Shown here: positions 20,078 through 42,123 of the stretch, piece by piece | Numbering within the stretch: the stretch's first letter is position 1 | How the letters are laid out: the number at the start of each line of letters is the position of its first letter | Assembly: GCA_902796855.1 (NCBI GenBank) | Contig: CADBQN010000083.1 | Location: forward strand, 1 to 43,417 | Origin: an uncultured Bacillota bacterium | GTDB lineage: Bacteria; Bacillota; Dehalobacteriia; UBA7702 | Direction: 5' to 3' | Length of the DNA: 43,417 nt | Made by a program: the position numbers and the translations under genes | The notes under the pieces: model-generated | The model's input: only the letters and a program-made list of their open reading frames with translations | The model's database searches: none | What the model was told of the DNA's origin: nothing

Positions 20078-20108
20078 CAAACATAAAAAAACAGACAACT
20101 TATGTTTG
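20078..20108 (+). promoter_or_regulatory. Inverted repeat just upstream of the stand-alone eutB
   Basis: CAAACATAA and TTATGTTTG form a perfect 9-bp stem with a 13-base A/C-rich loop, ending about 28 bases before the eutB ATG. The 19.89-20.08 kb region before it is very A/T-rich (long A and T runs). It could be a regulator binding site or an RNA hairpin in the leader. It has no U tract and does not show the paired hexaloops expected for an EutV (ANTAR) target. Confidence 0.45.
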
Positions 20109-20135
20109 ATTAAGTCAAAAAGAAGAGGTGGAGAG

Positions 20136-25099: not shown

Positions 25100-25164
25100 G
25101 CCGGAAAGAAGGATGATGAAAAACAGATTTATTTTTTTATTGATGCCGGATTTCTTTTTAATGA

Positions 25165-26508: not shown

Positions 26509-27171
26509 TCAGCACTTGCCGACGATGCGGACGGTATCGCCGTTGGTCAGGGACGCGGCGTTGGCCTCATCCATATCGACATGCATTTCCAGACGGAATT
26601 TGTCGCTGACACGGATCAGAACTTCCTCAAAGGTCAGGTTGCGTTCGCCGCAGGTCCGAACGTTGACGTGGTCGCCGTTTTTCAGACCGAGGCGCGCGGC
26701 GTCATCGGTGTGCATATGAATATGCTTCAGCGCGATGATGCAGCCTTCGGGAATGTTGATGGAGCCCTTGGGGCCGACAATGGTGATCGGCGCCGAGCCG
26801 GCGAGGTCGCCGGAATCTCTCAGCGGCGGTTTCACGCCGAGCTTAAAGCAGTCGGCAACGGAAACTTCCACCTGGGTCTGCTTTCTGGCGGGGCCGAGAA
26901 GGCGGACCCGTTCGATGGCGCCGCCGGGGCCGACCAGCGTCATCACTTCCTGGCAGGCGAACTGCCCGGGCTGAGATAAATCTTTGAAGTGTGTCATCGT
27001 CGCGCCCTGGCCGAAGAGTTTTTCAAAATCTTCCTGGCTCAGGTGGATGTGACGATTGGAAACGCCGATGGGAACGAGGGCGTCGTCAGTATCAAACTGA
27101 AAACAGCCGTCTTTTCCGCATTGTTCGGCAATGATCTTCGCAACCAATGCCGCGATTTCCTGTTCATTCAT
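26509..27171 (-). CDS. pduL: Phosphate propanoyl/acetyltransferase, PduL type
   Basis: A 220-residue microcompartment phosphotransacylase that converts acyl-CoA plus phosphate to acyl-phosphate and recycles CoA inside the shell. Two PduL beta-barrel domains are visible. The zinc and active-site histidines are His41 and His43 (SNRHIHLS), His150, His152 and His154 (KHIHMHTDD), and His197 (EMHVDM). The first 17 residues (NEQEIAALVAKIIAEQ) form an amphipathic encapsulation peptide followed by a short linker. It is the last gene of the operon and substitutes for EutD, which is absent. Its product feeds EutP and EutQ, both reported acetate kinases in Salmonella. Confidence 0.94.
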   Translation of the reverse strand: MNEQEIAALVAKIIAEQCGKDGCFQFDTDDALVPIGVSNRHIHLSQEDFEKLFGQGATMTHFKDLSQPGQFACQEVMTLVGPGGAIERVRLLGPARKQTQVEVSVADCFKLGVKPPLRDSGDLAGSAPITIVGPKGSINIPEGCIIALKHIHMHTDDAARLGLKNGDHVNVRTCGERNLTFEEVLIRVSDKFRLEMHVDMDEANAASLTNGDTVRIVGKC

Positions 27172-27188: not shown

Positions 27189-28670
27189 TTAACGCTGGAT
27201 CTGGGCAAGAACCTGTTTGACGACTTCGGAGATCATTTCAGCGCTGGCGCCGTTGGCGCGAGCGGGCTGAGCCTGAGCCGGCGCGGCGCAGGCGGGAGAG
27301 CTCCCTTCTTCGGGGATGTTGGGTTCACACATACCGTAAGCGAGCTTCTTGACGTTGATCAGATGCATCGGGCTCAGGTTTTCGTCCAGGCTGGAGCCGC
27401 CGCAGGTACCGCAGCCCAGGGTCAGGGACGGTGTGATGTTGGTGGTATAACCGATACCGCCGAGGGAAGAAGGCGTGTTGACCAGGATACGGGAAACGGG
27501 TTTCGCGCCGAATTCCCGGATGATGGCGTCATCCTTGCTGTGAACGGCCAGGCTGTGGCCGATCCCGCCGATGCTCAGCAGGCCCATGGAAAGAGCGCAG
27601 GCGTCGTGCCAGTCTTTGACACAGTAGAAGCCAAGCACGGAGGTGAGTTTTTCATGGGACAGCGGATATTCTTTGCCGTAGCCGTCCATCGGAGCGATGA
27701 GCAGTTTCGTTCCCTGGGGAACGGTAACACCGGCGTGTTCCGCGATGTAGCAGGCGGATTTACCGACAAAGTTGGCGTCCATGCCGTTATCCGGCGTCAT
27801 GATGGTCTTCGCGACCTTCGCGGTTTCTTCCTCGTTCATGATGTAGCAGTTTTCCGCTTTGAGGCAGGCGATAACTTCGTCACGAACGGGCTGATCGGCG
27901 AGGATGTGCTGTTCGGAAGCGCAGATCATGCCATGGTCGAAAGTTTTGCTGACGACGATGTCATGAACGGCTTTTTTGACGTCCGCCGTTCTTTCGATGA
28001 AGGCGGGGACGTTCCCGGCGCCGACGCCGAGAGCCGGTTTCCCGGCGGAATAAGCGGCCTTGACTAGACCGGGGCCGCCGGTGGCGACGATGGCGGCGAC
28101 GTTGTCGTTGTGCATCAGGGCGTCGGCCCCTTCCATGCTGGCTCTGGACAGGCACTGAATGGTGCCGTCGGGAGCGCCGGCGCGGGAGGCGGCGTCAGCG
28201 AGAACCTGTGCGGCGGCGTTGATGCATTTCACGGCCCGGGGATGGGGCGAGAAGATCACGGCGTTGCCGGCCTTCACGGCGCACATGGCGTTGTGGATCA
28301 CAGTGGAAGTCGGATTCGTCGTGGGAATGATCGCCATGATGACCCCGACGGGGCAGGCGATTTCGTATACTTTGTTAACGGGGTCTTCACTGATGTAACC
28401 GGTGGTCTTCATGTCTTTGATGTATTCGTAGACATTTCTCCCCGCGAAAGTATTTTTGATGATTTTGTGTTCGTAAACACCGTATTTTGTTTCATCACAG
28501 GCCATTCTCGCCAGCCATTCGGCATTGGCGTCAACGGCATCAGCCATAGATTTAATGATTTCATCTAATTTCTGCTGAGAAAAGGTGGCCAGGATGTCCT
28601 GGGCTTCCTTGGCTTTGCGGGCCAAGTCTCTTGTTTCCTGGATGATTCTCAGATCAAAATCGAGTGTCAA
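27189..28670 (-). CDS. eutE: CoA-acylating aldehyde dehydrogenase, EutE/PduP type, with C-terminal encapsulation peptide
   Basis: A 493-residue enzyme oxidising the lyase-derived aldehyde to acyl-CoA with NAD+. Catalytic Cys250 (FDHGMICASEQ), cofactor region VATGGPGLVKAAYSAGKPA, and GVGAGNVPAFI are in place. The start is TTG28670 behind AAGGGGG. Unlike typical EutE, whose targeting helix is N-terminal, this protein starts directly with the enzyme. It ends with a Pro/Ala-rich linker (about 455-473) and an amphipathic helix AEMISEVVKQVLAQIQR (477-493), the form of an encapsulation peptide. C-terminal placement is known from other aldehyde dehydrogenase-containing BMCs. Confidence 0.94.
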   Translation of the reverse strand: MTLDFDLRIIQETRDLARKAKEAQDILATFSQQKLDEIIKSMADAVDANAEWLARMACDETKYGVYEHKIIKNTFAGRNVYEYIKDMKTTGYISEDPVNKVYEIACPVGVIMAIIPTTNPTSTVIHNAMCAVKAGNAVIFSPHPRAVKCINAAAQVLADAASRAGAPDGTIQCLSRASMEGADALMHNDNVAAIVATGGPGLVKAAYSAGKPALGVGAGNVPAFIERTADVKKAVHDIVVSKTFDHGMICASEQHILADQPVRDEVIACLKAENCYIMNEEETAKVAKTIMTPDNGMDANFVGKSACYIAEHAGVTVPQGTKLLIAPMDGYGKEYPLSHEKLTSVLGFYCVKDWHDACALSMGLLSIGGIGHSLAVHSKDDAIIREFGAKPVSRILVNTPSSLGGIGYTTNITPSLTLGCGTCGGSSLDENLSPMHLINVKKLAYGMCEPNIPEEGSSPACAAPAQAQPARANGASAEMISEVVKQVLAQIQR

Positions 28671-28762: not shown

Positions 28763-29434
28763 TTATTTCATTTTAGCTTTGGTAATTTCCTGGATCAATA
28801 CCTTTTTGTTGGCAGCGGAAATTTCTCTGCCGACAATGGCGATTCCCTCAGTGGCACGGGCGAGTTTTCGCAGATCCTTGACGGCCATGCCTTCTAATTC
28901 TTTGGCGATATCGACTTCGGAGATCTGGGCCTGTTCCGCGGGGGCTTCCGCTTCGAGGGGAGCTTCGGCGTTTTCCGCTTCGGCTTCCGATTCTTCGGCG
29001 GGTTCGGCTTTTTCTTCCGGTTCCGCCGGTTCTTCGGCTTCCGGCTCATCCGCCGGTTCCGCCGGTTCCTCGGCTTCCGGTTCTTCCGGTTCGGGCGCCG
29101 TTTCTCCGCCGTCGGACGGAGAAACGGGACCGTCGTCGTCATCATCCAATAAAGGTAATGTAGGTAAAATATACTCTACTTCGTGATGGGGTCTGGGAAT
29201 CACGTGCACAGAGATGAGTTCTCCGACTCTCTGCGCGGCGGCGGCACCGGCGTCGGTCGCGGCTTTCACCGCGCCGACATCACCGCGAACCATGACGGTG
29301 ACATAAGCGCCGCCGACATGGACTTTGCCGATCAAAGTGACATTGGCCGCTTTGACCATGGCATCCGCCGCTTCAATGGAGCCAACCAGCCCTTTGGTTT
29401 CGATCATACCCAAAGCAATGTTTTGAGTTGGCAT
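28763..29434 (-). CDS. BMC-H shell protein with acidic linker and C-terminal Rho_N/SAP-like domain
   Basis: A 223-residue shell protein; ATG29434 is preferred over an in-frame TTG at 29443. Residues about 5-91 are a complete BMC hexamer domain (EutM/PduA type), identical residue for residue to the EutM encoded upstream from NIALG to EYILP. Residues 92-170 are an extremely acidic Glu/Pro/Ala linker. Residues about 174-221 form a compact helical domain ([20 protein letters not shown], then [13 protein letters not shown]) that resembles Rho N-terminal or SAP/LEM-like folds, which often bind nucleic acid or proteins. The tail should project from one shell face. EutK in enteric bacteria is a known BMC protein with a helix-turn-helix tail, so this may be an analogue. 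Confidence 0.88.
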
Positions 29435-29472
29435 AGAGTTCAACCCCTTTACAAATTACAGCCTGCGGCAAA

Positions 29473-29757
29473 TTATTCGTTGCCGAGTTTCGGTAAAATG
29501 TATTCGACTTCGTGATGGGGACGGGGGATAACATGGACGGAGATCAGTTCGCCGACTCTCTGGGCGGCAGCGGCACCGGCGTCAGTCGCGGCTTTAACAG
29601 CACCGACATCACCGCGGACCATAACGGTGACATAAGCGCCGCCGACATGGACCTTACCGATGAGCGTTACGTTGGCGGCTTTGACCATGGCATCAGCCGC
29701 TTCGATGGAGCCAACTAAACCTTTGGTTTCGATCATACCTAATGCGATATTTGTCAT
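29473..29757 (-). CDS. eutM: BMC-H shell protein EutM
   Basis: A 94-residue hexameric shell protein that tiles the facets of the microcompartment. Canonical features: [20 protein letters not shown], pore loop region [22 protein letters not shown] and [20 protein letters not shown] precedes the ATG. The 75-base spacer upstream is very A/T-rich with a small inverted repeat TTGAAA/TTTCAA. The gene directly downstream encodes an extended version with the same BMC sequence, so mixed hexamers are possible. Confidence 0.96.
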
Positions 29758-29832: not shown

Positions 29833-30906
29833 TTACTTCAAGCCGCAAGTTTCGGCCCAGTTCGCAGGGTAGGTCACGAAGAAGAACTTCGCTTTGTTGG
29901 GGGTGGTGAAGGTTACGTGGGTATTTGCGGGGATGTAGAAGGAATCACCGGCATGACCTGTAAACCTCTGACCGTTGACGATGAATTCAAGAGTACCGTC
30001 AATCACGTAATCCATTTCATCGTAAGTGAGGGTCCAATCAAGAGAGGAATTATCAAATTCCATGATGCCCGATGTCATGTTGGGGCTTTCCTGGGGATTT
30101 GTAAACTCTTTGATGTAGATCCCGGGGCGGTCGTTGGTGCCGTCATTGAAGACTTCCAACGGAGCGTTCGCCGATTTGATCAGCATGAAACCCGTACCGG
30201 GGTCGATGACCCGGTCAAGATTTCCCTGAGGGCACTCCCCCAGGCCCGCTAAGACCTGCTGAACAATTTGAGCGACGAGCTGAGGATCGACGCCGGCAGC
30301 GGCGGGAGCCGCGGGAGCCGCGGGGGCGGCGGGAGCGATGTTCGCGGCGGAACAAGGCGTTACAGCGGCGGGCACCGCCTGATTCTGAGGCGTGAAGCCA
30401 CCGCAGGAGACAGAAGTGATGGGCTGAATGGGAGAAGGAGCGCCGGCGTTAAAGGGGCTCTGAGCGGTTCTCACCGGATCAACGTTCACCAAAGCTTCCC
30501 GGGCGATGGGATTCGCCTTCGGCCAGGGGGTCGTGTAGGAAGACGGCGTGTTCTGTGTTCTTACGGAGCAGTTCGTTCTGGGGATCACATCCGGCCAGGG
30601 GGAGGTATACAGGGGCTGATCGCTTCTGTAACCGGGGACCGGAGGGCATTTCGTTGCCGGAGAAACCGCGTCGGATTTTACCACCGAGGCGCCGGCAGCG
30701 ACGATGGGAGAGGCGCCGCTGGAAATCGGATAAGAATCGGGATTGCCAACGCCGTAAGGCAGGCGTCCTTTGATGATTTTTACCCCAAATTCAGTGGCCG
30801 CGTCTCTGGCTGCAGGTGTAATGACGGTGTCGTCATCTTGATAGAATTCTTTTTGACCTTGTTCGTACAGACTTCTGATGTCATTTACGGAAATAAGTCG
30901 TTTCAA
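29833..30906 (-). CDS. eutQ: EutQ with long Pro/Ala linker and internal encapsulation-like helix
   Basis: A 357-residue protein (enteric EutQ has about 230). TTG30906 follows AAGGAGG. Residues 1-48 form a small domain (ISVNDIRSLYEQG, TVITPAARDAATEFGVKII) also seen at the start of EutT in this operon. About 50-205 is low-complexity, with two YT(S/T)PWP motifs and a run of Ala-Pro. Residues 207-223 (DPQLVAQIVQQVLAGLG) form an amphipathic helix like an encapsulation peptide. The C-terminal cupin barrel (about 230-352) has the EutQ features MEFDNSSLDWTLTYDEMDYV and GDSFYIPANTHVTF. EutQ is needed during anaerobic ethanolamine growth and shows acetate kinase activity in Salmonella. The linker helix should anchor it to the shell or cargo. 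Confidence 0.9.
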   Translation of the reverse strand: MKRLISVNDIRSLYEQGQKEFYQDDDTVITPAARDAATEFGVKIIKGRLPYGVGNPDSYPISSGASPIVAAGASVVKSDAVSPATKCPPVPGYRSDQPLYTSPWPDVIPRTNCSVRTQNTPSSYTTPWPKANPIAREALVNVDPVRTAQSPFNAGAPSPIQPITSVSCGGFTPQNQAVPAAVTPCSAANIAPAAPAAPAAPAAAGVDPQLVAQIVQQVLAGLGECPQGNLDRVIDPGTGFMLIKSANAPLEVFNDGTNDRPGIYIKEFTNPQESPNMTSGIMEFDNSSLDWTLTYDEMDYVIDGTLEFIVNGQRFTGHAGDSFYIPANTHVTFTTPNKAKFFFVTYPANWAETCGLK

Positions 30907-30951: not shown

Positions 30952-31500
30952 TTATAAAATATGGGCTGTAAGTGCTTTGTGCGGCGAAGGGATGACAACG
31001 GATTCTACCAGCATTCCCTTTTCCGCGCAGGTCTCTTTGCCGACGTTCACGGAGGCCGTTACGTCCCCGACATCGCCGGTGAGGGTCACGAAGGACTTGC
31101 CGCCGATCCCGGTACCGACGCGGATCTCAATGAGATCGACTTCGCCGGCTTTCACGGCGGAATCCGCCGCGACGATCAGCGCCGCGATGGAGAAGGACTC
31201 CACAACACCGAGGGCGTCCAACTCTCTGACGTCCGACGCCGAAGAGATCGCTTTTATAACTGAGGGATGGACATTGGGGATGACGAAATCATCCACAACG
31301 GAGTCTCTGCCAACAGTGTTCCCGGCCTGAACCGAGTTATACACCGCCGAGACCTCACCCCAAATCAATACAATGTATTTGCCGGGACAGATCGGACGGG
31401 CGTCCAGCAGCTCAACACGAGACTGTTTGAGCATGGCATCCGCCGCCTCAATCCCTTTGGCATTACTGACAAATTCTACTAAACCGATGGCGTTTATCAT
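30952..31500 (-). CDS. pduT: BMC-T shell protein, PduT-like (putative Fe-S pore)
   Basis: A 182-residue protein with two tandem BMC domains (about 3-85 and 95-178), so three copies form a pseudohexamer. It matches PduT, including the CPGKY motif with Cys38 (PICPGKYIVL), which in PduT helps bind a [4Fe-4S] cluster at the threefold axis. Other matches are VDDFVIPNVHPSV and VVESFSIAALI. The gene overlaps the end of the pduS-like gene by four bases, as expected for a redox pair that moves electrons across the shell. Confidence 0.92.
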   Translation of the reverse strand: MINAIGLVEFVSNAKGIEAADAMLKQSRVELLDARPICPGKYIVLIWGEVSAVYNSVQAGNTVGRDSVVDDFVIPNVHPSVIKAISSASDVRELDALGVVESFSIAALIVAADSAVKAGEVDLIEIRVGTGIGGKSFVTLTGDVGDVTASVNVGKETCAEKGMLVESVVIPSPHKALTAHIL

Positions 31501-32837
31501 CTCCGGGCACCTCCTGCCTTGATCACGATCACGGAGTCCGTAATTTCCGTTACCGTTCCGTCAATGCTCGCGTGGACCGGCGCTCCCAAAGCGTCTGCGG
31601 GAATTTCGCCGATCATGTCGCCGCGCTTCACGCTGTCCCCCACCTGAACGATGGGTTTCGACGGCGCGCCGACGTGCTGTTTCAACGGAATTTTGACCGT
31701 GTCAAAATGGTATTCTTCCTCAATCAGGGGTGCGGCTACATCGTAGCGGGCCAGATCGATCCGGCGAACGATCCTCGAGGAAGGCACTCTCCTATCCTTC
31801 CTGTGCGGATGCACCCTTTGCGGATCGGGTTTATCCAACGGTTTGATTCCCTGAGCCATGAGCTGCCGTTTCACCTGGGCGTTTACCGTGCGGGGCATCA
31901 GATGCGCCGGGCAGGAATACTGCTCGCACATGCCGCATTCGCAGCAGGCAAAGGCCATGCGGAGAACGTCTTCGGCGGCTTCTCCGTATTTCAGCGCCCG
32001 CATGATCCGATGAGGTTCGATCTCGTGGCCCAGCAGGTAGCGGGGGCAGAGATCCGTGCAGTATCTGCATTGGATACAGGCGGACTGCGTCGTTTTGGAG
32101 ATGGCTCGCATGGATTTTCTTCTCATCCGAATCAGATAATGAGATTCAGGTAAAACAATGTAGGCTTTCGCGGCCTTTTTGACGGGTTCGTCCAGATCCT
32201 GAACGAGTCCGCCCATCATCGGGCCGCCGTCAATGACGCCGTAGCCTTTGGCGTCAGTAACGCCGGCCAGGGCGAGGGCTTCGCGAACGGATATGCCTAC
32301 CGGGACTTTGACCGTCACGGGATGGGGAACATGTCCGGTAACGGTGATATACGTTTCCGTTACGGGCTTTCCCTCATCAACGGCAGCGGCCACATTGATC
32401 AGCGTTTCCACGTTGGTCACGACCGCACCGACGTGAATCGGCAATCCGCCCTGAGGTACCTCACGGCCGGTCGCTTCATACAGTGTTACCTGCTCATCAC
32501 CGGCGGGATAGAAGTCATCCAGAATGAATACGGATAATTTTTCGTTATCCGCCACGGCTTCCTGCAACAGCTCTACGGCTTCTTTATGCTTGCCTTTAAT
32601 GGCGATAATCCCTTCTTTGGCACCAGTCTCCTCAACAATGATGGTGAGGCCGCGGATGAGCTTGTCGATGGCGATGATCATCAGCTGCTGATCGACGCGG
32701 ATCAGCGGTTCGCATTCGGCGCCGTTGACGACGACCACTTCCGCCTCAACGTTATACTTAACGTGACTGGGGAACCCGGCGCCGCCGGCGCCGACGATTC
32801 CGGCATTTTTTATCTTTTCAATCACATTGGAAGCCAT
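31497..32837 (-). CDS. pduS: PduS-like flavin/iron-sulfur reductase
   Basis: A 446-residue RnfC/PduS-family protein. It begins with the glycine-rich GIVGAGGAGFPSHVKY nucleotide-binding region. The middle has NGAECEPL and a SLBB-type segment (TVTGHVPHPVTVKVPVGISV). Two cluster motifs follow: Cys254, 257, 260 and 264 (CIQCRYCTDLC), and a second group around Cys298-309 (CCECGMCEQYSCP). The C-terminus is a barrel-sandwich hybrid domain. In propanediol BMCs PduS reduces cobalamin for the adenosyltransferase and partners PduT. Here it could supply EutT with reduced cobalamin or reoxidise NADH made by EutE, which matters because no alcohol dehydrogenase is seen. Confidence 0.92.
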   Translation of the reverse strand: MASNVIEKIKNAGIVGAGGAGFPSHVKYNVEAEVVVVNGAECEPLIRVDQQLMIIAIDKLIRGLTIIVEETGAKEGIIAIKGKHKEAVELLQEAVADNEKLSVFILDDFYPAGDEQVTLYEATGREVPQGGLPIHVGAVVTNVETLINVAAAVDEGKPVTETYITVTGHVPHPVTVKVPVGISVREALALAGVTDAKGYGVIDGGPMMGGLVQDLDEPVKKAAKAYIVLPESHYLIRMRRKSMRAISKTTQSACIQCRYCTDLCPRYLLGHEIEPHRIMRALKYGEAAEDVLRMAFACCECGMCEQYSCPAHLMPRTVNAQVKRQLMAQGIKPLDKPDPQRVHPHRKDRRVPSSRIVRRIDLARYDVAAPLIEEEYHFDTVKIPLKQHVGAPSKPIVQVGDSVKRGDMIGEIPADALGAPVHASIDGTVTEITDSVIVIKAGGARR

Positions 32838-32843
32838 TTCTTA

Positions 32844-33149
32844 CTACTCCTTATGCGGCGAGAAACTCCATTCGTTTTCATCGATGATCCCGACAATCAG
32901 CAGGTCGATGGGAACATTGCTGTCGTACCCCCCGGCCCGACGGGCCGAGGACCCGCCGACGGTGATGACGAGTTCACCGATGCCCGCGCCGATGATATCG
33001 GCAGCGATCTGCACCTTGCCGCCGTTGTTCGCGGGGTTTTCCAGATCCGAAGGAGTATCCAGAATCTGGACGACCATGAGTTTCGCGCTTCGTAAATCTT
33101 CAACTTTTCGGGTTGACCAAATGTTATCGATGACTCGACCTATGCGCAC
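32844..33149 (-). CDS. eutN: BMC-P vertex protein EutN
   Basis: A 101-residue EutN/CcmL/PduN pentamer that caps the shell vertices. It starts with the family sequence MRIGRVIDNIWSTRK (GTG start at 33149) and contains VVQILD, AADIIGAGIGELVI and GGSSARRA. It is the only BMC-P protein in the window, enough for closing the shell. It lies six bases before the pduS-like gene and 18 bases after eutJ. Confidence 0.95.
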   Translation of the reverse strand: MRIGRVIDNIWSTRKVEDLRSAKLMVVQILDTPSDLENPANNGGKVQIAADIIGAGIGELVITVGGSSARRAGGYDSNVPIDLLIVGIIDENEWSFSPHKE

Positions 33150-33167: not shown

Positions 33168-34028
33168 TTACAGATCGGCGTACAGAGAATCTTCTTTACT
33201 GCCCTCCAGCATACTGCCGAGAGCAATACCCAAAGGCGTGACGAGCATCGGGTTATCCGGTTTGACCACGGTGATGCCCAGCTGCTTTTCCATAACGCCC
33301 TCGACGCCTTCAAAACAGCAGGTACCGCCCACCAGGTAAATCGTATCCACCTTATGTCCCTCAATGGACTTTTTAACGATGGAACCCATCTTTTCAAAGA
33401 CCGGCCGGACAATGGGTAAAAGCCCGCTGTGCTCCGAGGGGTCCTTTTTCAGCTTTTCCGCCTCAAGGAAAGGAATGCCTTTCGCCCCGGCAATGACGAG
33501 ACTGATATGCGTACCGCCGGAGGGTTCGTCGTCCACGCTGATGACTTTGCCGTCTTTCAGCACGGCGATCCCGGTGGTGCCGCCGCCGATATCGACCACG
33601 GCGCCGTCTTCGATGTGAAGAACATTGTTGGCCGCCGTCGGTTCATCCATGGTGTATTCCACTCTGAAGCCGCAGGCTTCGGCGACGTAGCGGATGGCGC
33701 GGCAGTCGCTGACATCGGTTCCCGGCGGATATGCGACACCCGCCAGTTCCAGTTCGGTGCCGATGTTTTTCTCGATCTTCGCTTTGAGCTTTTTCACGAT
33801 CTGCATCGCGCCGTTGTAGTCGACGACCAGACCGTCCTTGACCACTTCGGCAAACTGCATGGCCCCGGCGACCGGGGTACCGTCCTCGTCGACGACCGCC
33901 AGGACAATGTAGGCTGTCCCGAGGTCAACGCCGGTGTACAGTTTTTTTCCTTTTACCGCTTTGAGAGGCTTTCTGAACGTTTTTTCATATGCCTTAATCA
34001 GGTCATTCGCTTGCTTTAATTCCTTCAC
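33168..34028 (-). CDS. eutJ: EutJ, Hsp70-like chaperone
   Basis: A 286-residue ASKHA-fold ATPase. Phosphate-1 loop GVDLGTAYIVLAVVD (about 33-47), then VEYTMDEPTAAN, the phosphate-2 loop DIGGGTTGIAVLKDG, and YLVGGTCCF give the actin/Hsp70 signature without the peptide-binding domain of DnaK. The start is GTG34028 behind GGGGGAAC. Its exact role in Eut microcompartments is not established; folding or assembly of cargo is the usual suggestion. Confidence 0.93.
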   Translation of the reverse strand: MKELKQANDLIKAYEKTFRKPLKAVKGKKLYTGVDLGTAYIVLAVVDEDGTPVAGAMQFAEVVKDGLVVDYNGAMQIVKKLKAKIEKNIGTELELAGVAYPPGTDVSDCRAIRYVAEACGFRVEYTMDEPTAANNVLHIEDGAVVDIGGGTTGIAVLKDGKVISVDDEPSGGTHISLVIAGAKGIPFLEAEKLKKDPSEHSGLLPIVRPVFEKMGSIVKKSIEGHKVDTIYLVGGTCCFEGVEGVMEKQLGITVVKPDNPMLVTPLGIALGSMLEGSKEDSLYADL

Positions 34029-34040
34029 GATGTTCCCCCG

Positions 34041-35129
34041 TCAGGCGCCGTACTGGTACACGCCGCCGAGCAGCTGCAGCATAAAGACGTAAATCAAGCT
34101 GCTGAAGCGGTTCACTGCCTTGAGGATATCATCCCGTTCGGTGGAGCCGTCCTCACGGTAGAAAGCGTGGGCCGCGGCCAGTTCCAGTTCTCTGGACTGG
34201 GCTCTGAGGCGGTTCAGCTGAGCCATGATCTTGCCGTGATGCGGCTGAGGCGTAAAGTGATTGGCGCTGTAGAACTTATTGGGGTAATGCGAACGCTCGC
34301 GGATCTCATCGGAATCCCAGCCGCAGATGTTCATCGGGGCCATCGGTTCCTGCATGACTTCGGCACGCATAATGGTGCGGGAATATTCAAGCAGTTCGTT
34401 GAGATCGCTGGAGAGAGAATTAAATCCCGCCGTTTCCGTGTCGATCACCAATTCCAGGAGCATCGCTTCAAAGCTGTCCAGCTGACCGCGGAAGGCGATG
34501 ATCGGATGGGTTTTGGGAACGAGTTCCGACCCTCTGAGATGGGTCATATGTTCCGGCTTGGAATGATCCGTGTGGGATGTATCCATATTCTGGGCCGTGG
34601 TGTCCCGTTTCTGCCGCGAGGCTTCCATCGGCGTTTGTCCGCCGAAGGACTGCTGAGCGGGCTGCACCGGTTTTACCGGCTGGACCGGTTGTACAGGTTG
34701 AACCGGCTGAACCGGCTGAACCGGTTGTACAGGCTGTATCGGCTGTACGGGCTGCACCGGCTGAATCGGCTGTACCGGCTGAATGGGCTGCACCGGCTGT
34801 ACCGGCGGAGCCGTGGGGACAGTGGCCTGAATGCCCTGATGAACAACGGTGGGATAGCCGCCCTGAGCCTGAGGGCTCCTGGGATCGGCCAGCGGCTGCG
34901 GGGAAGGCGCGATTCTCGGCAGAGCCGGTGTCGGCGCCGCCGCGTTATAGCGGCGGTTCTCCGCGGCCAGGACGCTTTCGGCAACGCCGTCTCTCAGCAC
35001 TTTGATTTTCCGCTCGCTGAGAAACTGGGAGGCCGCCGGCGTCAGCTTCATTCCTGAAGGCAAGTCAAAGGAGGTAAAAGGAGATTTTTTATAAATGTCG
35101 CGCAATTCGGATTCTGTAATTACTTTCAT
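34041..35129 (-). CDS. eutT: Cobalamin adenosyltransferase EutT with Pro-Val-Gln repeat linker
   Basis: A 362-residue ATP:cob(I)alamin adenosyltransferase that makes the coenzyme B12 needed by the lyases. Residues 1-50 form the small N-terminal domain shared with EutQ ([27 protein letters not shown]). Residues 109-159 are about 17 tandem Pro-(Val/Ile)-Gln units, an unusual insert that makes the protein about 100 residues longer than typical EutT. The catalytic part (about 192-362) has [29 protein letters not shown] and the C-terminal helices. The HX11CCX2C metal motif of enteric EutT is absent from the region before the catalytic domain, as I recall for some other Firmicutes EutT. AAGGAGG precedes the ATG. 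Confidence 0.9.
34653..34805 (-). repeat. Tandem 9-bp coding repeat (Pro-Val/Ile-Gln units) inside eutT
   Basis: About 17 copies of a 9-base unit encoding P-V-Q or P-I-Q in tandem. Codons vary slightly between units (for example CCGGTACAG against CCGATACAG-like forms), and one unit has Lys in place of Gln. Such short in-frame repeats can change copy number by slippage without breaking the frame. Confidence 0.9.
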
Positions 35130-35168: not shown

Positions 35169-35840
35169 TCAGACTTCAAAGTCATGAGGCGATCTGGCGA
35201 TGGCGACAACGGCGTCACGGAAGGCTTCCGTCGCCGCTTTACAGGCACTCTGGGAACCTGTCAGCAGGGCGCCGGCGTAGTTGGTTTCCGTCGGGGGACC
35301 ATACCACAGCGGCATGGTGACGTCGGCGGCTTTGATCGCGGCATCAACGCCGTAGACGGCTTCGATGGGCGGGGCGATCAGATAAGCCAGAGGCTGTCCT
35401 TCGGGGATGCCTGCGCATTCCGAAAGGTAGCTGCCGGTTCTGGAGATCGTGTGAGCGAAATAGACGACGGAATCATCGTCATTGGCGGAATAGAACCAGG
35501 CTTCCTCGGCCAGATACTGGATGCAGGCGTTCAATCCGGCTTTTGTTTCGGCGGGATTGGGGCCGGCAAGGATGCCGATAAATTCCCCGGCCAGAGGGCC
35601 CGCGGCTCTCATCGCGTTGGGAGCGCCGGCGTAGAGGGATTTCGCGTAGACAACGCGAACTTCGGCTTTTTTCGTTGCTTCATCGATCGCCGTATAGGCG
35701 CAATCATCGATGTCGCAGGTGAACATTGCGATACTTTGTTGATCGTCGGTCATTTTGAGATCACGTCTCAGATCCGGCGCAACATTGGGGATAAATTTGG
35801 TTGCTAAAACATGTGGTTTTACAGGATCTAACAATGCCAT
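35169..35840 (-). CDS. eutL: BMC-T shell protein EutL
   Basis: A 223-residue tandem BMC protein forming a trimeric pseudohexamer with a gated central pore. Matching features include MALLDPVKPHVLATKFIPNV at the start, SIAMFTCDIDDCAYTAIDEAT, YAGAPNAMRAAGPLAGEFIGILAG and the C-terminal NYAGALLTGSQSACKAA. The length fits EutL (about 219). AAGGAGG precedes the ATG. It may let large cofactors or substrates through the shell. Confidence 0.95.
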   Translation of the reverse strand: MALLDPVKPHVLATKFIPNVAPDLRRDLKMTDDQQSIAMFTCDIDDCAYTAIDEATKKAEVRVVYAKSLYAGAPNAMRAAGPLAGEFIGILAGPNPAETKAGLNACIQYLAEEAWFYSANDDDSVVYFAHTISRTGSYLSECAGIPEGQPLAYLIAPPIEAVYGVDAAIKAADVTMPLWYGPPTETNYAGALLTGSQSACKAATEAFRDAVVAIARSPHDFEV

Positions 35841-35853
35841 ATTTTATACCTCC

Positions 35854-37341
35854 TTATTTATTACCTTTTTCAAAAACTAATGTCTTCACCACGACGGGGA
35901 CGACTCTGCCGCCCATGATCGGGCTGCCGATGTCGATGTAATCCCCTTCGTCGACATCAATCTGGTCGACACAGACCAGTTCTATATGATGATCGGATAC
36001 GATATCCAAACATTGACCTAACGCTTTGCCGCAGTCGGCGCCGACGATGACGATGAGCACGCCGCGGTACCTGAGGTAGTTCCGCATCCCCTTATAGAGC
36101 CCTTCCGCCAGATCGCGGATGCAGTTGTACGTCACTTCCGCGGGGCCTTCCAGGGCGATCCCCAGAATCTTGTCGGGGTCTTCGGAGTGGATGCGGTCCA
36201 CGGTATCGCTGACCATTTCGGCGATGACGTCGATATCCCGGGGCATTTCGTCCTTGGGGAACGGCGAGAGCACCTGAACGTTCTTCAGAGGTAGCGTCTG
36301 TTCATTGACGTGAATGGTGCTGCCGCTGATGTTCATGGAGTGGATCCCCGCGCCGATGACGGTGGCACGGATCGTTTCCAGAGGTTTGGCCAGGGTCACC
36401 CCGGCTTCGGCGAACTTTTTGCGGATCGCCCAGCCAAGAACGGGGCCGATATCGCCGTATTGGGTCATCGTGCTGAGCGCCACCGGTTCGTAATCGCTGT
36501 AGACGTAGTCGGCGACGCCGCCGGAAATGACGACCTGATAGACTTCGTAATCATCTTTCAGCGCCGGAGTCATCAGCAGTTCATCCAGGAGCTCACCGGG
36601 ATGGCGATTGACAATGGATTCTACACAGAGCTCCGCCATGCGTTCGGCGATGCGGATCAGCTGTTTCTGCGTGGCCTTGTCGCCGATCATCAGCTCAATG
36701 CCGAGATCGTTCAAAACGCGCTGGGCCGGTTCGGCAATGTAGGTCACGGTATCTCCGCCCTTTTCCAGTTCCACCAGATGGCCGCCGACGTTGATGCAGG
36801 CGGCGTCGATGACGCGTCCGCCGTTGAAAACGCCGATGTTGGCGGTGCCGCCGCCGATGTCGATGTTGGCGAATGCCTTATGGTGTTCCTCGGAATAAGC
36901 CGAAGCGCCGCTGCCGCGGCCGGCTAAAATCGATTCCAGGTTCACACCGGCAGTGGCGACAACAAAGTCGCCGGCGTATTCGGAGACGGCTTCCAAAATA
37001 TTGGCGGCGTTCTCCTTTTTGGCGGTTTCACCGGTGATGATGACGGCGCCGGTCTCCACGTCCCAGGGATTCATACCGGCCTGCCGGTATTCCTCTTCCA
37101 GGATCTTGGCGATTTCATCGGCGTCGATCAGCAGGTGATCGTCGATGGGGGTGAAATGGATGTTGCTTCTGTAAAGAACTTCCCGTTCGGAGATCTCCAT
37201 GTGGGGGATGACCGAAGCCGGGGCGGAATTTCGTACCGTCAAGCGACTAAGAACCAGTTGGGTCGTGGTTGTTCCGATATCAATGCCTACGCTGATGAGT
37301 TTTTGTTCTGCGGAGCTGATGATGAACACCACCCTTCCCAA
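35854..37341 (-). CDS. eutA: Ethanolamine ammonia-lyase reactivase EutA
   Basis: A 495-residue ATPase that releases damaged B12 from the lyase so that fresh adenosylcobalamin can bind. ASKHA nucleotide-binding motifs are seen: SVGIDIGTTTTQLVLSRL near 17-34, ANIDIGGGTANIGVFNGG, and VVISGGVADY. It follows the BMC eutBC by 12 bases. The start is unclear: the open frame reaches back to TTG37341 without a ribosome binding site, two GTG codons lie directly on GGGAAGG, and there is no ATG before the conserved region. It is the only reactivase gene in the window, so it may serve both lyases. Confidence 0.93.
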   Translation of the reverse strand: MGRVVFIISSAEQKLISVGIDIGTTTTQLVLSRLTVRNSAPASVIPHMEISEREVLYRSNIHFTPIDDHLLIDADEIAKILEEEYRQAGMNPWDVETGAVIITGETAKKENAANILEAVSEYAGDFVVATAGVNLESILAGRGSGASAYSEEHHKAFANIDIGGGTANIGVFNGGRVIDAACINVGGHLVELEKGGDTVTYIAEPAQRVLNDLGIELMIGDKATQKQLIRIAERMAELCVESIVNRHPGELLDELLMTPALKDDYEVYQVVISGGVADYVYSDYEPVALSTMTQYGDIGPVLGWAIRKKFAEAGVTLAKPLETIRATVIGAGIHSMNISGSTIHVNEQTLPLKNVQVLSPFPKDEMPRDIDVIAEMVSDTVDRIHSEDPDKILGIALEGPAEVTYNCIRDLAEGLYKGMRNYLRYRGVLIVIVGADCGKALGQCLDIVSDHHIELVCVDQIDVDEGDYIDIGSPIMGGRVVPVVVKTLVFEKGNK

Positions 37342-37353
37342 ATTTCGTTCGGA

Positions 37354-38277
37354 TTATTTCGTCGCTTCGTTCAGTTTCACACCGGTGCACTGATATTTGA
37401 GGATATCCTGGATCAAATCAACGAGCTGGGCGCCGGCTTCCACCGGAGGCGTACCGCCGGCGTAGATGTTGGAGATCAACGTTCTGTCGGCTTCGACGGT
37501 ATCTTTGGTGGGACGGTAAATCAGGTAAGCGCTCATGCTGCTGGCCGTACCAAGGCCGGGTCTTTCACCGATGAGGTTGAGCACGACGTCGCAGCCGAGT
37601 TCCATGCCGACCTGGTCCATGACGCGGACGCGGCCGTTTTTAACGAACACCGGGGTGCCGACGGTGACACCGGCGGCTTCCAAACCCTGTACCAGCGGAG
37701 GCAGGATTTCGGGAATGTTCGCTTCGATGGCGCGGGAGCTGAGACCGTCGGAGATGATGATCTGCACCTGCACCTTCGTGATGGTGGAATGGAAGCGCTG
37801 TTCATGAATCTGCGTATCCTGTTTGCAGATTTCATGAAGCTTCTTCACGCCTTCTTCGGAAAGCTGGGTGCCCCAGTTCGGTTCGCGGAGGAAGTCATCT
37901 TTCGTCGTCGCTCTGGTGGTGATGGTTTCCAGGTTGTTCTTTTTGAGGAAATCATCGGAGACATCGAGGAAAACGGCGTCCATCGCGGCGGCGTGGTCAG
38001 CCTGGAAGCGGAGCCATGTATCGGTGCGCTGTCTCGTACCGCAGCGGCCGAGGCCGATTCTGGCGGTGGTGACCTGTTTCATCGCTTCGACGGCGGCGTA
38101 ATTCTTCGCGTTGGTCAGCGTGGGATGATCGACATCGGGAAGATTGATTACGCCGTCTTCAATGACGGAACCGGCGGTGGTGTTGCCGTAAGCCGCGGGC
38201 GCGGCGCCGCTTTTGCGCAGTTCGGCCAGAACCGATTCTACAATCATTCTTTCCATGTCGTTTTGATAATTAGCCAT
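37354..38277 (-). CDS. eutC: Ethanolamine ammonia-lyase-like small subunit (BMC copy)
   Basis: A 307-residue partner of the divergent EutB encoded just before it. Core motifs are present: ARIGLGRCGTRQRTDTWLRFQADHAAAMDAV, IIISDGLSSRAIEANIPE, LIGERPGLGTASSMSAYLIY and PPVEAGAQLVDL. It is 25 residues longer than the other EutC, mainly in the N-terminal linker and around the IHEQRFHSTI insert (about 145-160). The N-terminal helix (about 5-22, QNDMERMIVESVLAELRK) is a good encapsulation peptide. GAAGGAGAAC precedes the ATG. Confidence 0.93.
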   Translation of the reverse strand: MANYQNDMERMIVESVLAELRKSGAAPAAYGNTTAGSVIEDGVINLPDVDHPTLTNAKNYAAVEAMKQVTTARIGLGRCGTRQRTDTWLRFQADHAAAMDAVFLDVSDDFLKKNNLETITTRATTKDDFLREPNWGTQLSEEGVKKLHEICKQDTQIHEQRFHSTITKVQVQIIISDGLSSRAIEANIPEILPPLVQGLEAAGVTVGTPVFVKNGRVRVMDQVGMELGCDVVLNLIGERPGLGTASSMSAYLIYRPTKDTVEADRTLISNIYAGGTPPVEAGAQLVDLIQDILKYQCTGVKLNEATK

Positions 38278-38295: not shown

Positions 38296-39654
38296 TTATT
38301 TTTCAAAGATGGAAGGATCGCCGGCGATTTCGGTCAAGCGACCGTCTTCCATAAGACCCATGTCTTCCATCCATTTTTCAAATTCAGGGGTCGGACGCAG
38401 ACCGAGGATCTCGCGGATCGAGGCGTCGTCATGATACGTCGTATCCTGATAGTTCAGCATGATATCGTCACCGCCGGGAACGCCCATGAAGTAGAAGGAG
38501 CCGGCCATGGCGCAGAGCATGGTACCGTTTTCCTGGTCATTCTGGTCGCATCTCATGTGGTTGGTGTAGCAGGGAGCGATCCCCATGGGCAGACCGTGGA
38601 CCTTGCCCATGAACAGGTCTTCGATGTCGGCGCGGACCACTTCGCGGCCGTCATAAATCGTTTCGGGGCCGATGAAGCCGGAAACGTTGTTGACCATGAA
38701 GGGCTGGAAGTGACGGCCAAAGCCGTAGGTTCTGGCTTCCAGGGTCATTTCGTCAATGCCTTCGTCGCCTTCGAGGGAGACTTCGGAACCCTGACCGGTT
38801 TCAAAATACATGAAGTTGGGGCCAAGGGAGTTGCCGCCCTGACGGCAGGCTTCTCTGGCGTTTTCGAGCAGGTCTTTGGTGATGCCGAAGGCGTCGTTGG
38901 TGGCCTGGGTGCCGGCGATGCTCTGGAAGAAAACGTCGATGGGAGCGCCGAGTTCCTGAGCTTTCATCTGCGTGGTCACGTGGGCGAGGACGCAGGCCTG
39001 GGTCGGGATCTTCCATTCTTCCATGAATTCATGGACGGTTTTCAGCAGATAGGCGGTGTTTTCCGGGTTGTCCTCAACGGGGTTGATACCGATGACGGCG
39101 TCACCGGAACCATAGGTAAACCCTTCCTTCATCGAGGCCATAATCCCATTGACATCGTCGGTGGTGTGGTTGGGCTGGTTCCGGTAGGAAATTCTGCCGG
39201 GGAGACCGATGGTGGTGTTGCAGCGGGCCGGCTGGCGAATTTTAGCGGAAGCGGCAACGAGGTCGAGGTTGGACATGAGCTTCGCGACGCCGGCAATGGC
39301 TTCGGAGGTCATGCCGCGGCCGAGACGGAGCACTTCATCGCCGGTATGGGCGAGAATGTATTCGCGGAGTTCCCCGAGAGTGTAGCCTTTAAATTCGTTG
39401 TAGACATACTGGTTGAGATCATCGTAGATCACGCGGGTCACTTCGTCCTTCTCGTAAGGAATGACCGGGTTTTCATAGATGTCTTCCAGGGTCATGCGGC
39501 TCAGAACGAGACGCGCGGCGACTCTTTCGCTTTGAGATTCCGCCGCAATGCCCTGCCAGGTGTCACCGGCTTTCACTTCATTCGCCTTGGCCAATACCTC
39601 GGCGACGGAGTGAAACTCGAATGTCCTGTTGTACATTTTTGCTTTCAGCTTCAT
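38296..39654 (-). CDS. eutB: Ethanolamine ammonia-lyase-like large subunit with altered active site (BMC copy)
   Basis: A 452-residue B12-dependent lyase of the EutB family, the signature enzyme of this operon. Equivalents of Arg160, Gln162, Asn193, Glu287 and Val326 of characterised EutB are kept at 158, 160, 191, 285 and 324 (two less throughout). However, the Asp362 position is Ala360 (MGIAPCYTNH instead of MG-x-D-x-CYTNH), the residue between the Arg and Gln ligands is Asn instead of Leu (YRNQPN), and the second Val of NTVVG is Ser (NNVSG). Asp362 binds the amino group of ethanolamine, so the substrate may differ. Framework motifs are intact, so this is not a decaying gene. AAGGAG precedes the ATG. 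Confidence 0.92.
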   Translation of the reverse strand: MKLKAKMYNRTFEFHSVAEVLAKANEVKAGDTWQGIAAESQSERVAARLVLSRMTLEDIYENPVIPYEKDEVTRVIYDDLNQYVYNEFKGYTLGELREYILAHTGDEVLRLGRGMTSEAIAGVAKLMSNLDLVAASAKIRQPARCNTTIGLPGRISYRNQPNHTTDDVNGIMASMKEGFTYGSGDAVIGINPVEDNPENTAYLLKTVHEFMEEWKIPTQACVLAHVTTQMKAQELGAPIDVFFQSIAGTQATNDAFGITKDLLENAREACRQGGNSLGPNFMYFETGQGSEVSLEGDEGIDEMTLEARTYGFGRHFQPFMVNNVSGFIGPETIYDGREVVRADIEDLFMGKVHGLPMGIAPCYTNHMRCDQNDQENGTMLCAMAGSFYFMGVPGGDDIMLNYQDTTYHDDASIREILGLRPTPEFEKWMEDMGLMEDGRLTEIAGDPSIFEK

Positions 39655-39729: not shown

Positions 39730-40257
39730 TCAGTCGCGGTAGCGGATGCCCTTTTTCAGGGCGTTTTCAATGTATTCTTTCAGTTCGCCGATCCCCTCGC
39801 CGGTCTTGGCGGAGACGCAGAAGATGTGATGGGGATCGGATACGCAGACGTTTCGCAGGATGTTCCGGGAACGCTCGATATCGGCGTTCTCCTCGTCAAT
39901 TTTCGTTACCACACCGATGCTGCGGCGGGGAAAGGCGATGGCGAAGCCCGGCGGGAACTGATTATAAGCGGTGGTGGAATCCTGAAGGAAAAGGATGAGA
40001 TCGGCCTCGAGGGCCGTGGCCAGCAGCGCCCCTTTCATAAAGGGCGTCGCCGTGTATTCGCCCGGCGTATCGATGGCCCTGGAACCGTATTCCATGCTTT
40101 GGGTCTTGTCTTTCTCCATGGAAACGGGGCCGTCCTGATACAGCGCTTTCATCAGCGTCGTTTTCCCGGCGTCCACCGCACCGGCGAGCATAATCCTTCT
40201 GATTTCGCCGTCGGCGTCGGTCACGGTGCCGACGGTGCTGAGCTTCTCTCCTGCCAT
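39730..40257 (-). CDS. eutP: EutP, second tandem copy (P-loop NTPase, acetate kinase family member)
   Basis: A 175-residue small GTPase-like protein. Walker A GAVDAGKT (26-33), DTPGEY (G3) and TKID (G4) are present, and SAKTGEG gives the G5 region. It is about three quarters identical by eye to the copy upstream, differing mainly in the N-terminus and around residues 75-100 and 120-130. EutP has been reported as an acetate kinase in Salmonella, so it could make ATP from the acetyl-phosphate made by PduL. The 75-base spacer to eutB is A/T-rich. Confidence 0.9.
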   Translation of the reverse strand: MAGEKLSTVGTVTDADGEIRRIMLAGAVDAGKTTLMKALYQDGPVSMEKDKTQSMEYGSRAIDTPGEYTATPFMKGALLATALEADLILFLQDSTTAYNQFPPGFAIAFPRRSIGVVTKIDEENADIERSRNILRNVCVSDPHHIFCVSAKTGEGIGELKEYIENALKKGIRYRD

Positions 40258-40333
40258 AAGTTATCTTTCCTCAATAATTCAGCCGCGGTTATAAACGGCG
40301 CTTCGTTCACAACGGCCGTTCGCCTTCGCGCCG

Positions 40334-40873
40334 TCAGACGCGATAGCGGATCCCCTCCTCAAGGGCCTTGTCAATATATTCTCGCAATTCCCTGATGCCT
40401 TCGCCGGTCTTGGCGGAAACACAGAAAATGTGATTGGGATCGGATACGCAGACGTTGCGGATGATATCGACGCCCCGTTTGACGTTGGCGTCGGGGTGGT
40501 CGATTTTCGTCACCACGCCGATGCTCCGGCGGGGAAAGGCGATGGCGAAGCCCGGCGGGAACTGGATGTAGCCGGTGGTGGCATCGTGGAGAAAGAGGAT
40601 GAGGTCCGCCTCGAGGGAGGTGGCCAGCAGAGCGCCTTTGCCGATATAGGGCAGGGCCGTGAACTCGCCGGGCGTGTCGATGGCCTCGGAATCATAATCC
40701 ATGCTCTGGGTCTTGTCCTTCTCCATGGAAACGGGTTCGTCGCGAAAAAGGGCTTTCATCAATGTTGTTTTTCCCGCGTCCACCGCGCCGGTCAGCATGA
40801 TCCGCCGGGACACTCCTTTGGAATCCGTCACGGTGCGGACAGCGCGGAGATTCTCTTCCGCTTTCAGGTTCAT
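40334..40873 (-). CDS. eutP: EutP, first tandem copy (P-loop NTPase, acetate kinase family member)
   Basis: A 179-residue EutP/PduV family protein. Walker A GAVDAGKT (29-36), DTPGEFTALPYIGKGALLAT in the switch region, TKID, and SAKTGEG are conserved. Compared with the second copy it has one more residue after the DTPGE motif and a longer N-terminus. The ribosome binding site is weak (GGAAAGAAC). Two EutP genes in a row is unusual; PduV in propanediol BMCs is a relative that binds the shell, so the two copies may have split kinase and localisation roles. Confidence 0.9.
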   Translation of the reverse strand: MNLKAEENLRAVRTVTDSKGVSRRIMLTGAVDAGKTTLMKALFRDEPVSMEKDKTQSMDYDSEAIDTPGEFTALPYIGKGALLATSLEADLILFLHDATTGYIQFPPGFAIAFPRRSIGVVTKIDHPDANVKRGVDIIRNVCVSDPNHIFCVSAKTGEGIRELREYIDKALEEGIRYRV

Positions 40874-40955: not shown

Positions 40956-41315
40956 TCAGGACTTCGTCAGCGGAGAGGGAGCATATCCCAATATGTTTTC
41001 GAAATACTCGCTGATGGCTTTCATCGAGGAGATGACACTGGCCACATCACCGGTGACCGTCAGGGCGCCGGTAAAGCGGTCGAGAAAACCGATGCGTACC
41101 TCCCCGGCTTTTGTGGCAATATCGCCGGCGATGATCGCCGACTCACCGGGGGTGATCGTCAGGATGCCGACGGCGCCGTCGTGAGGGACGCCGAGTTTAT
41201 CGTAAACATCGTCAACCGGCTGGGCGATCACGTGAAGGAGGGTGATCTGGCGGCCGGGGACAAACTCCTGAATAATTCGCTGCTTTTCCTCGCCGCTGCC
41301 GCCGTCAAAAACCAT
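40956..41315 (-). CDS. eutS: BMC-H shell protein EutS (bent hexamer)
   Basis: A 119-residue circularly permuted BMC protein, first gene of the operon. The family segment RIIQEFVPGRQITLLHVIAQP starts at about residue 13, after a short extra N-terminus (MVFDGGSGEEKQ). GVPHDGAVGILTITPGESAIIAGDIATKAGEV follows. EutS hexamers are bent and form edges of the shell. AAGGTGGGAGC directly before the ATG supports the start. Confidence 0.95.
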   Translation of the reverse strand: MVFDGGSGEEKQRIIQEFVPGRQITLLHVIAQPVDDVYDKLGVPHDGAVGILTITPGESAIIAGDIATKAGEVRIGFLDRFTGALTVTGDVASVISSMKAISEYFENILGYAPSPLTKS

Positions 41316-41422: not shown

Positions 41423-42061
41423 TTATTTATCGCCATCCATAAAACCGTTCCACCATGCCACCAAATCGGCTTTTTCGGTGAAGCAGTAATCGGGATCACC
41501 GTCAAGAACGACTTCCGGCTTTTGCCAGCCCCAGGTAACGCCGAGACGGACGTCGATACCGACCTCGTCGGCCTCGACCATATCCCCTTTCGTGTCACCG
41601 AGGAAAACGGTGCGCTCACCGGGATACCGTTCCATTACGGAGCGGAGCTTTTTGACCTTGCTCGGTTCCTTATCGGCGCCGAGGACGTCTTTAACGCCTT
41701 TTACGTCGTATTCTTTCAGCCGCGATTCCACGGTGGCAGAAACATTGGAGGTGACGATATAAACGGGATAACGCTCGGCGACTTTTTTCAGGAGTTCCAG
41801 CACTTCGGGGAAGGCCGCGATGGGAAAGCGCCCGTCGGTCTTGATCTTCGCGTAGAACGACATGATCGCGTCGGACTGCTCCGCGGTGACACCGAGAGCG
41901 GCAAGCCCCTCGTAGAAGTTGCCTTCGGAAAGTCTGGCCATATCGTCGGCGTTTTTCACGGCGTCAACGCCGACCTCTTGACAAGCTTCGGCAAAATACC
42001 TCGCTTCCGATTCAAGAGAGTCCACCATTACGCCGTCATAGTCGAAAAACACCAGTGCCAT
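41423..42061 (-). CDS. HAD-superfamily phosphatase (phosphoglycolate phosphatase-like)
   Basis: A 212-residue haloacid dehalogenase-type hydrolase. I chose ATG42061 behind AAAGGAG; an ATG at 42094 is in frame but has no ribosome binding site. Motif I is FFDYDGV (catalytic Asp7 and Asp9), motif II is IVTSN, the Lys of motif III lies in SKVKKLR, and motif IV is FLGDTKGDMVEA. A helical cap sits between motifs I and II, so it is a type C1 phosphatase. Substrate unknown. It lies just upstream of the BMC operon on the same strand with a strong promoter, and might act on a phosphorylated precursor of the BMC substrate; this link is only positional. Confidence 0.85.
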   Translation of the reverse strand: MALVFFDYDGVMVDSLESEARYFAEACQEVGVDAVKNADDMARLSEGNFYEGLAALGVTAEQSDAIMSFYAKIKTDGRFPIAAFPEVLELLKKVAERYPVYIVTSNVSATVESRLKEYDVKGVKDVLGADKEPSKVKKLRSVMERYPGERTVFLGDTKGDMVEADEVGIDVRLGVTWGWQKPEVVLDGDPDYCFTEKADLVAWWNGFMDGDK

Positions 42062-42123
42062 TTTGAAGCAATCTCCTTTAAGTCCGAATTTCACCCATTT
42101 TTATCAAAATAAACTACGCTAAT

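Follow-up and report, generated by a model that had tools for sequence, protein, structure and literature searches.

Conserved Ala-type EutB proteins in Eut microcompartment operons and their possible role in the breakdown of choline-derived methylated ethanolamines

Structural work on the E. coli ethanolamine ammonia-lyase EutBC has established that Asp362 of the large subunit contacts the substrate ammonium (PDB 3ABO series); a search limited to the open literature returned no published text on its role. The EUT metabolosome has been catalogued (PMC8217296). For choline, a demethylation route has been described in Eubacterium limosum, where the kinase MthK, an EamA carrier similar to LicB and MttP, the MttB-family protein MthB, which acts on phosphocholine, and MthC and MthA yield dimethylaminoethanol (DMAE) as product (Jiang et al. 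2025, PMC12155760). The same study names Ca. Formimonas warabiya as a carrier of choline-demethylation genes. When strain DCMF of this organism grows on choline, each choline yields 3.1 acetate and 1.3 monomethylamine, and neither trimethylamine nor dimethylamine is detected; the strain does not use trimethylamine. The route proposed for the monomethylamine runs through glycine betaine and sarcosine reductase (PMC8163858).

We analyzed a window of 43,417 nucleotides (the whole stretch of DNA under study) from an uncultured rumen member of the Dehalobacteriia, a class whose members in our set include DCMF (G010) and Dehalobacterium formicoaceticum (G006). The window encodes the only two EutBs of its 2.1-Mb genome (G000; Table 1). 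EutB1 is a canonical Asp-type protein, left unmentioned where the first-pass annotation discussed EutB2. The EutB1 and EutC1 genes adjoin one for an Amt-type ammonium transporter and have no shell genes with them; G001-G003 contain close relatives of the pair, at 85% identity or higher. EutB2 is part of an operon with a complete Eut microcompartment gene set, comprising shell genes, EutA, EutC, EutE, a phosphotransacylase and EutT. The first-pass annotation of this DNA had described the operon as intact with 17 genes; it is indeed intact, and the number becomes 18 when the leading HAD gene is included. Homologues of this HAD gene adjoin MthB-like genes in six loci of relatives (L102, L110, L265, L267, L270 and L272). 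No riboswitch or other Rfam element was found in the window at the gathering threshold.

Several further features of the operon were observed. The two EutP-like GTPase genes stand in tandem (39730-40873), and the EutT-like protein (34041-35129) has a long Pro/Gln/Val repeat segment inserted ahead of its conserved domain. The adjacent EutM genes (28763-29443 and 29473-29757) share 86% DNA identity over about 260 bases and encode near-identical proteins, the former with a tail rich in Glu, Pro and Ala. A sortase and a repeat-rich surface protein adjoin the operon just downstream (24422-26289).

Table 1. Features of the window, with their positions, strand and the basis of each assignment.
Feature	Positions	Strand	Basis
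EutB1, canonical Asp-type, outside the BMC operon	20106..21497	+	alignment
EutC1, partner of EutB1	21510..22358	+	adjoining EutB1
PduL-type phosphotransacylase	26509..27171	-	Pfam PTAC
EutE-type aldehyde dehydrogenase (acetaldehyde to acetyl-CoA)	27189..28670	-	Pfam Aldedh
EutM with long Glu/Pro-rich tail	28763..29443	-	ORF reading, DNA comparison
EutM shell hexamer	29473..29757	-	ORF reading
EutQ, cupin protein	29833..30906	-	Pfam EutQ
BMC shell trimer, PduT-like	30952..31500	-	ORF reading
PduS/RnfC-like electron-transfer flavoprotein	31497..32837	-	Pfam Complex1_51K, RnfC_N
EutN-type pentameric shell protein	32844..33149	-	ORF reading
EutJ-like chaperone	33168..34028	-	Pfam FtsA/Hsp70-type domains
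EutT, corrinoid adenosyltransferase	34041..35129	-	NCBIfam PRK15020 match, below cut-off
EutL shell protein	35169..35840	-	Pfam BMC
EutA, reactivase of B12 lyase	35854..37341	-	Pfam EutA 577 bits
EutC2, small subunit partnering EutB2	37354..38277	-	Pfam EutC 257 bits
EutB2, Ala-type ethanolamine-ammonia-lyase large subunit, 452 aa	38296..39654	-	alignment; Pfam EutB 637 bits; AF2 model
EutP-like GTPase, copy 2	39730..40257	-	Pfam PduV-EutP
EutP-like GTPase, copy 1	40334..40873	-	homologue of 39730-40257 protein
EutS shell protein	40956..41315	-	resemblance to relatives
HAD-family phosphatase, first gene of operon	41423..42094	-	homologues next to MthB-like genes in relatives
End of small conserved gene, cut by contig edge	43299..43417, approximate	-	80% DNA match to L003

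The EutB2 reading frame is intact on the minus strand, and its coordinates in the first-pass annotation were correct. The protein matches PF06751 over its full length (637 bits against a cut-off of 25) and also NF011649 (611 bits, cut-off 554); Ala-type genes pass the latter and would therefore be annotated as ethanolamine ammonia-lyase. In an AF2 prediction (pLDDT 89.5; rmsd 1.6 and TM 0.97 to 3abo) the modelled fold is unchanged from that of EutB, the next fold relative being diol dehydratase at a TM of about 0.6. Alignment to the E. coli (3abo) and Listeria (2qez) enzymes and 140 relatives confirmed that R158, Q160, N191, E285 and V324 are retained, so that active-site Arg160, Gln162, Asn193 and Glu287 (E. 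coli numbering) are all kept. It likewise confirmed that A360 occupies the column of Asp362 and that a Ser lies beside the conserved Val (S325, in the V327 column). The Asn between the Arg and Gln ligands, to which attention had also been drawn, is not diagnostic: it occurs in eight Asp-type proteins as well, mostly from Chloroflexi, and was rejected as a marker.

To place EutB2 among its relatives, EutBs were gathered from 80 GTDB loci, 100 relatives and 399 genomes of the phylum, which gave 138 proteins once duplicate loci had been removed. Position 362 is Ala in 32 of these and Asp in the remaining 106, which span E. coli, Listeria, Clostridia, Negativicutes, Chloroflexi, Actinobacteria and haloarchaea; a search for a non-acidic residue at 362 within the Asp clade found none among the 106 sampled. 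Before duplicate removal, all 34 Ala-type rows combined A362 with S/T327 and P/Q363, and every other EutB (106/106) carried both D362 and V327. A maximum-likelihood tree placed all 32 Ala-type EutBs on one side of a single branch (SH-aLRT 100). The separate, conserved clade foreseen in the first-pass annotation thus exists, and BMC surroundings are usual for its members, with EutC2-like genes following most of the Ala-type EutBs.

Seven positions split the two types without overlap among the 138 proteins. From Asp-type to Ala-type, the changes are V327 to S/T, Y334 to T, G345 (A in two proteins) to D/S/T/N, D362 to A, A/V/C/I363 to P/Q, L379 to G/A/S and C/S/T406 to D, and the corresponding residues of EutB2 are S325, T332, D343, A360, P361, G377 and D404. 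Five of these positions had gone unmentioned before, including the gained Asp406, which is invariant in Ala-type EutBs and lies close to where the final barrel strand ends. According to the predicted secondary structure, positions 327, 334, 362, 363 and 406 follow barrel strands, on the catalytic face, and 345 and 379 fall in helices; model confidence is low at window residues 395-402. Side chains shrink at D362A, Y334T and L379G/A. With the acid relocated and the pocket enlarged, a cationic amine of greater bulk would be a better fit than a neutral diol. Asp406 may take over for the lost acid of Asp362, so that a neutral substrate need not be implied; a neutral diol, as suggested by plain loss of the acid, is weakened as a candidate by this gained residue.

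The Ala type often coexists with the Asp type. Both are present in G004, G010, G053, G119, G126, G147, G152 and G171, and they lie in or near one operon in G010, G152, G147, G126, G119 and the Synergistaceae locus L014. The Ala-type protein is the sole EutB in G006, G088 and G099, where its operon comprises a complete Eut microcompartment. We subsequently surveyed 261 Bacillales genomes, selected independently of the discriminating positions, and found 15 with an Ala-like EutB, about nine of them already known through the loci and the rest new. All 15 show the same discriminating residues, and all 15 carry a second EutB, about 54% identical to EutB2, which was of the Asp type in the four genomes checked (G618, G430, G644 and G524). 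A plasmid search for EutB2 relatives gave only matches below 60% identity. Because the clade is conserved and separate, keeps its catalytic residues, usually resides in a BMC context and frequently coexists with canonical EutB, the best reading of these sequences is that Ala-type EutB acts on a different amino alcohol. The first-pass annotation had proposed another amino alcohol or a related compound: the former is favored by the clade and the coexistence, while a diol or other uncharged substrate is disfavored by the invariant gained Asp406.

The first-pass annotation had singled out no candidate substrate; the gene neighborhoods of several relatives give a clue, pointing to N-methylated ethanolamines derived from choline. 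In L102 (G088), L143 (G126) and L110 (G002, a member of the window's genus), a choline-demethylation cluster lies directly upstream of the Ala-type operon in the order choline-kinase-like APH, EamA, a small winged-helix-like gene, an MttB-superfamily gene and HAD, the last running into eutS or eutB. G152 has this same gene set inside about 14 kb; MthK-like, EamA and MthB-like genes are partly present next to the Ala-type operon in L145/L272 and L142; and in L270 the MthB gene is followed by MthC- and MthA-type genes and HAD. DCMF (G010) has an Ala-type operon with an Asp-type EutBC beside it, and its mth module is located elsewhere in the genome. The arrangement of these genes, together with the naming of Ca. 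F. warabiya (PMC12155760), suggests that the cluster is the counterpart of E. limosum mth, and we refer to its genes as MthK-like and MthB-like.

Quantitatively, an MttB-superfamily gene was present at a distance of at most 10 kb in 8 of 31 Ala-type loci versus 1 of 103 Asp-type EutB genes (p = 3e-5), and the genomes differed in any MttB (19/20 Ala-type versus 6/20 Asp-only), in the dimethylamine methyltransferase family (14/20 versus 3/20) and in MthB-like genes (11/20 versus 4/20), p-values and contrasts that overstate independence since the linked genomes are related and most belong to one class and phylum. The sole Asp-type EutB with a nearby MttB shares its locus with an Ala-type EutB. 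MttB proteins of the pyrrolysine type, with an in-frame TAG, form a clade of their own (bootstrap/SH-aLRT 100/100) that is linked to the mth module or a Eut operon in eight genomes (G088, G126, G099, G147, G152, G110, G010 and G006; loci L279, L280, L105, L271, L272, L276, L265 and L266). Because the pyrrolysine MttB characterized so far uses a tertiary amine, DMAE is a possible substrate of this linked clade, although we offer this as a guess.

For the window strain itself the link to choline demethylation is by synteny, with the upstream genes surmised from relatives. The homologue of its edge gene in G002 (frameshifted) sits between the MthB-like gene and HAD, and MthB is therefore expected just past the contig edge. 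No close MthB was found elsewhere in the window genome, which is 98% complete; its nearest MttB has 33% identity to MthB-like proteins, and the closest MthK-like kinase (41%) occurs in isolation. This genome also encodes 18 members of the MttB family and 6 dimethylamine methyltransferases; in many of these genes an in-frame TAG is interpreted as pyrrolysine.

Taken together, we consider the chances about even that Ala-type EutBC is a B12-dependent lyase for choline-derived N-methyl- or N,N-dimethylethanolamine. EutB2/EutC2 would be an adenosylcobalamin-dependent carbon-nitrogen lyase whose amine pocket has been remodelled for an N-methylated ethanolamine through loss of Asp362, gain of Asp406 and reduction of several large side chains. 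Choline would enter via the EamA-type carrier, be phosphorylated by the MthK-like kinase and demethylated by MthB, after which MthK or the HAD phosphatase would release DMAE. A further methyl group may be taken off by the linked pyrrolysine-type MttB, leaving N-methylethanolamine (MMAE). EutB2C2 would act within the microcompartment, converting MMAE or DMAE to methylamine or dimethylamine plus acetaldehyde, which EutE and PduL would turn into acetyl-phosphate. The roles of HAD and the pyrrolysine MttB are those we infer for this pathway. The products of DCMF are consistent with cleavage of N-methylethanolamine to methylamine and acetaldehyde, and also with the betaine/sarcosine-reductase route; by electron count the theoretical acetate yields of the two routes are the same, so stoichiometry cannot decide between them. 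Other points against this reading are the distant MttB and solitary kinase of the window genome, the lack of MttB in Ala-type Bacillales and Synergistaceae, and the mth cluster of three Asp-only genomes.

An unlikely alternative is that EutB2C2 remains an ethanolamine ammonia-lyase that differs in affinity, stereochemistry or regulation, in organisms whose mth genes demethylate choline as far as ethanolamine. None of its other ligands has changed, and the operon's Eut shell, EutE and PduL belong to an acetaldehyde pathway. Moreover, G110, G305 and G390, Asp-only genomes of one family, pair the mth cluster (L171, L274, L275 and L276) with an ordinary Asp-type EutB and may demethylate choline fully to ethanolamine, and the three genomes with the Ala type alone would have no other EutB for this substrate. 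However, unless the ligand has changed, it is difficult to account for seven fixed differences alongside an Asp362 that is constant in the 106 Asp-type proteins of widely different phyla; in addition, both types are retained in many genomes, including all 15 Ala-type Bacillales. The Asp-type EutB accompanying the mth cluster in G110, G305 and G390 belongs to a separate clade, and a GntI-like kinase is found nearby in G110.

It is rather unlikely that the substrate is some other amino alcohol or diol, such as an aminopropanol or 1,2-propanediol, unrelated to choline. This possibility draws on the Ala-type loci of Bacillales, which have no methylamine genes nearby, and on diol dehydratase as next fold relative. 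We found no MttB and no methylamine genes in the Ala-type genomes of Bacillales and Synergistaceae, which means that the reaction, if shared, does not need methyl-group use; nor did the Bacillales Ala-type neighborhoods (HK, EutV, transporters, ALDH, TPP enzyme) give a consistent substrate clue. Against this alternative, a neutral substrate would be hard to reconcile with the invariant Asp406 if that residue is in the pocket, Gln162 and Glu287 are retained, and propanediol-specific genes are absent from the operon. The Ala-type EutB in L108, L146, L147 and L150 is preceded by two APC-type permeases, one of them related to the ethanolamine permease, together with EutV and a histidine kinase, and EutH is interposed in the first three of these loci.

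Choline itself is a quite improbable substrate. On this reading EutB2C2 would release trimethylamine from choline in a B12-dependent lyase reaction, and the linked pyrrolysine MttB would use up the trimethylamine. The pocket changes are mostly from large to small, and a pyrrolysine-type MttB lies near the Ala-type EutB even without MthB in G377 and G318; yet DCMF neither forms detectable trimethylamine from choline nor can use it, and MthK and MthB would be superfluous beside a choline lyase. The broader proposal that Ala-type EutBC, housed in a Eut-type microcompartment and independent of CutC, is a B12-dependent lyase that cleaves methylated ethanolamines and even choline itself we regard as a long shot. 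Finally, that EutB2 is a decaying or inactive copy, as loss of an otherwise universal residue might suggest, is scarcely credible and was already doubted in the first-pass annotation: dN/dS is about 0.03 versus L003 and 0.05 versus L110, indicating strong purifying selection, there are no stops, the ligands are conserved, and identical substitutions recur across distant phyla, including complete operons with the Ala type as only EutB.

Our literature searches found no earlier description of this variant of a known enzyme and metabolosome, among the hits listed no paper linking EutB with MttB and, in the open literature, none on EutB with dimethylethanolamine. If Ala-type EutBC does cleave methylated ethanolamines, some eut operons would encode choline-degradation organelles, an enzyme could be assigned to the further conversion of DMAE, which the 2025 study of choline demethylation (PMC12155760) did not settle, and anaerobes of rumen and groundwater could convert choline to methylamine and acetate, bypassing trimethylamine. 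The seven fixed residues should then switch EutB specificity, which offers a structure-function handle.

Compared with EutBC of E. coli and Listeria, EutB2 is 51-55% identical, has the same fold, shares the Arg/Gln/Asn/Glu/Val active-site residues and has an EutC partner with adjoining EutA and EutT, but it differs by Ala at 362 and six more fixed differences including Asp406, and belongs to a separate clade. The window operon resembles the EUT metabolosome (PMC8217296) in its EutS, L, M and N shell proteins, in EutP, Q, J and T, and in EutE and PduL; unlike it, the operon has an Ala-type signature enzyme and is led by an HAD gene, and in several relatives it is preceded by a choline-demethylation cluster. 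As judged by gene arrangement, the kinase, EamA, MttB-family demethylase, corrinoid protein and methyltransferase of the relatives correspond to MthK-MthB-MthC-MthA of E. limosum; their cluster, however, includes an HAD gene and leads into a Eut-type operon, and DMAE may therefore be degraded further instead of being excreted. Like the microcompartment of the choline trimethylamine-lyase CutC, the system would use a compartmented lyase to release a methylated amine and acetaldehyde, but CutC is a glycyl radical enzyme, whereas EutB2C2 belongs to the B12-dependent EutBC family and its predicted products are methylamine or dimethylamine.
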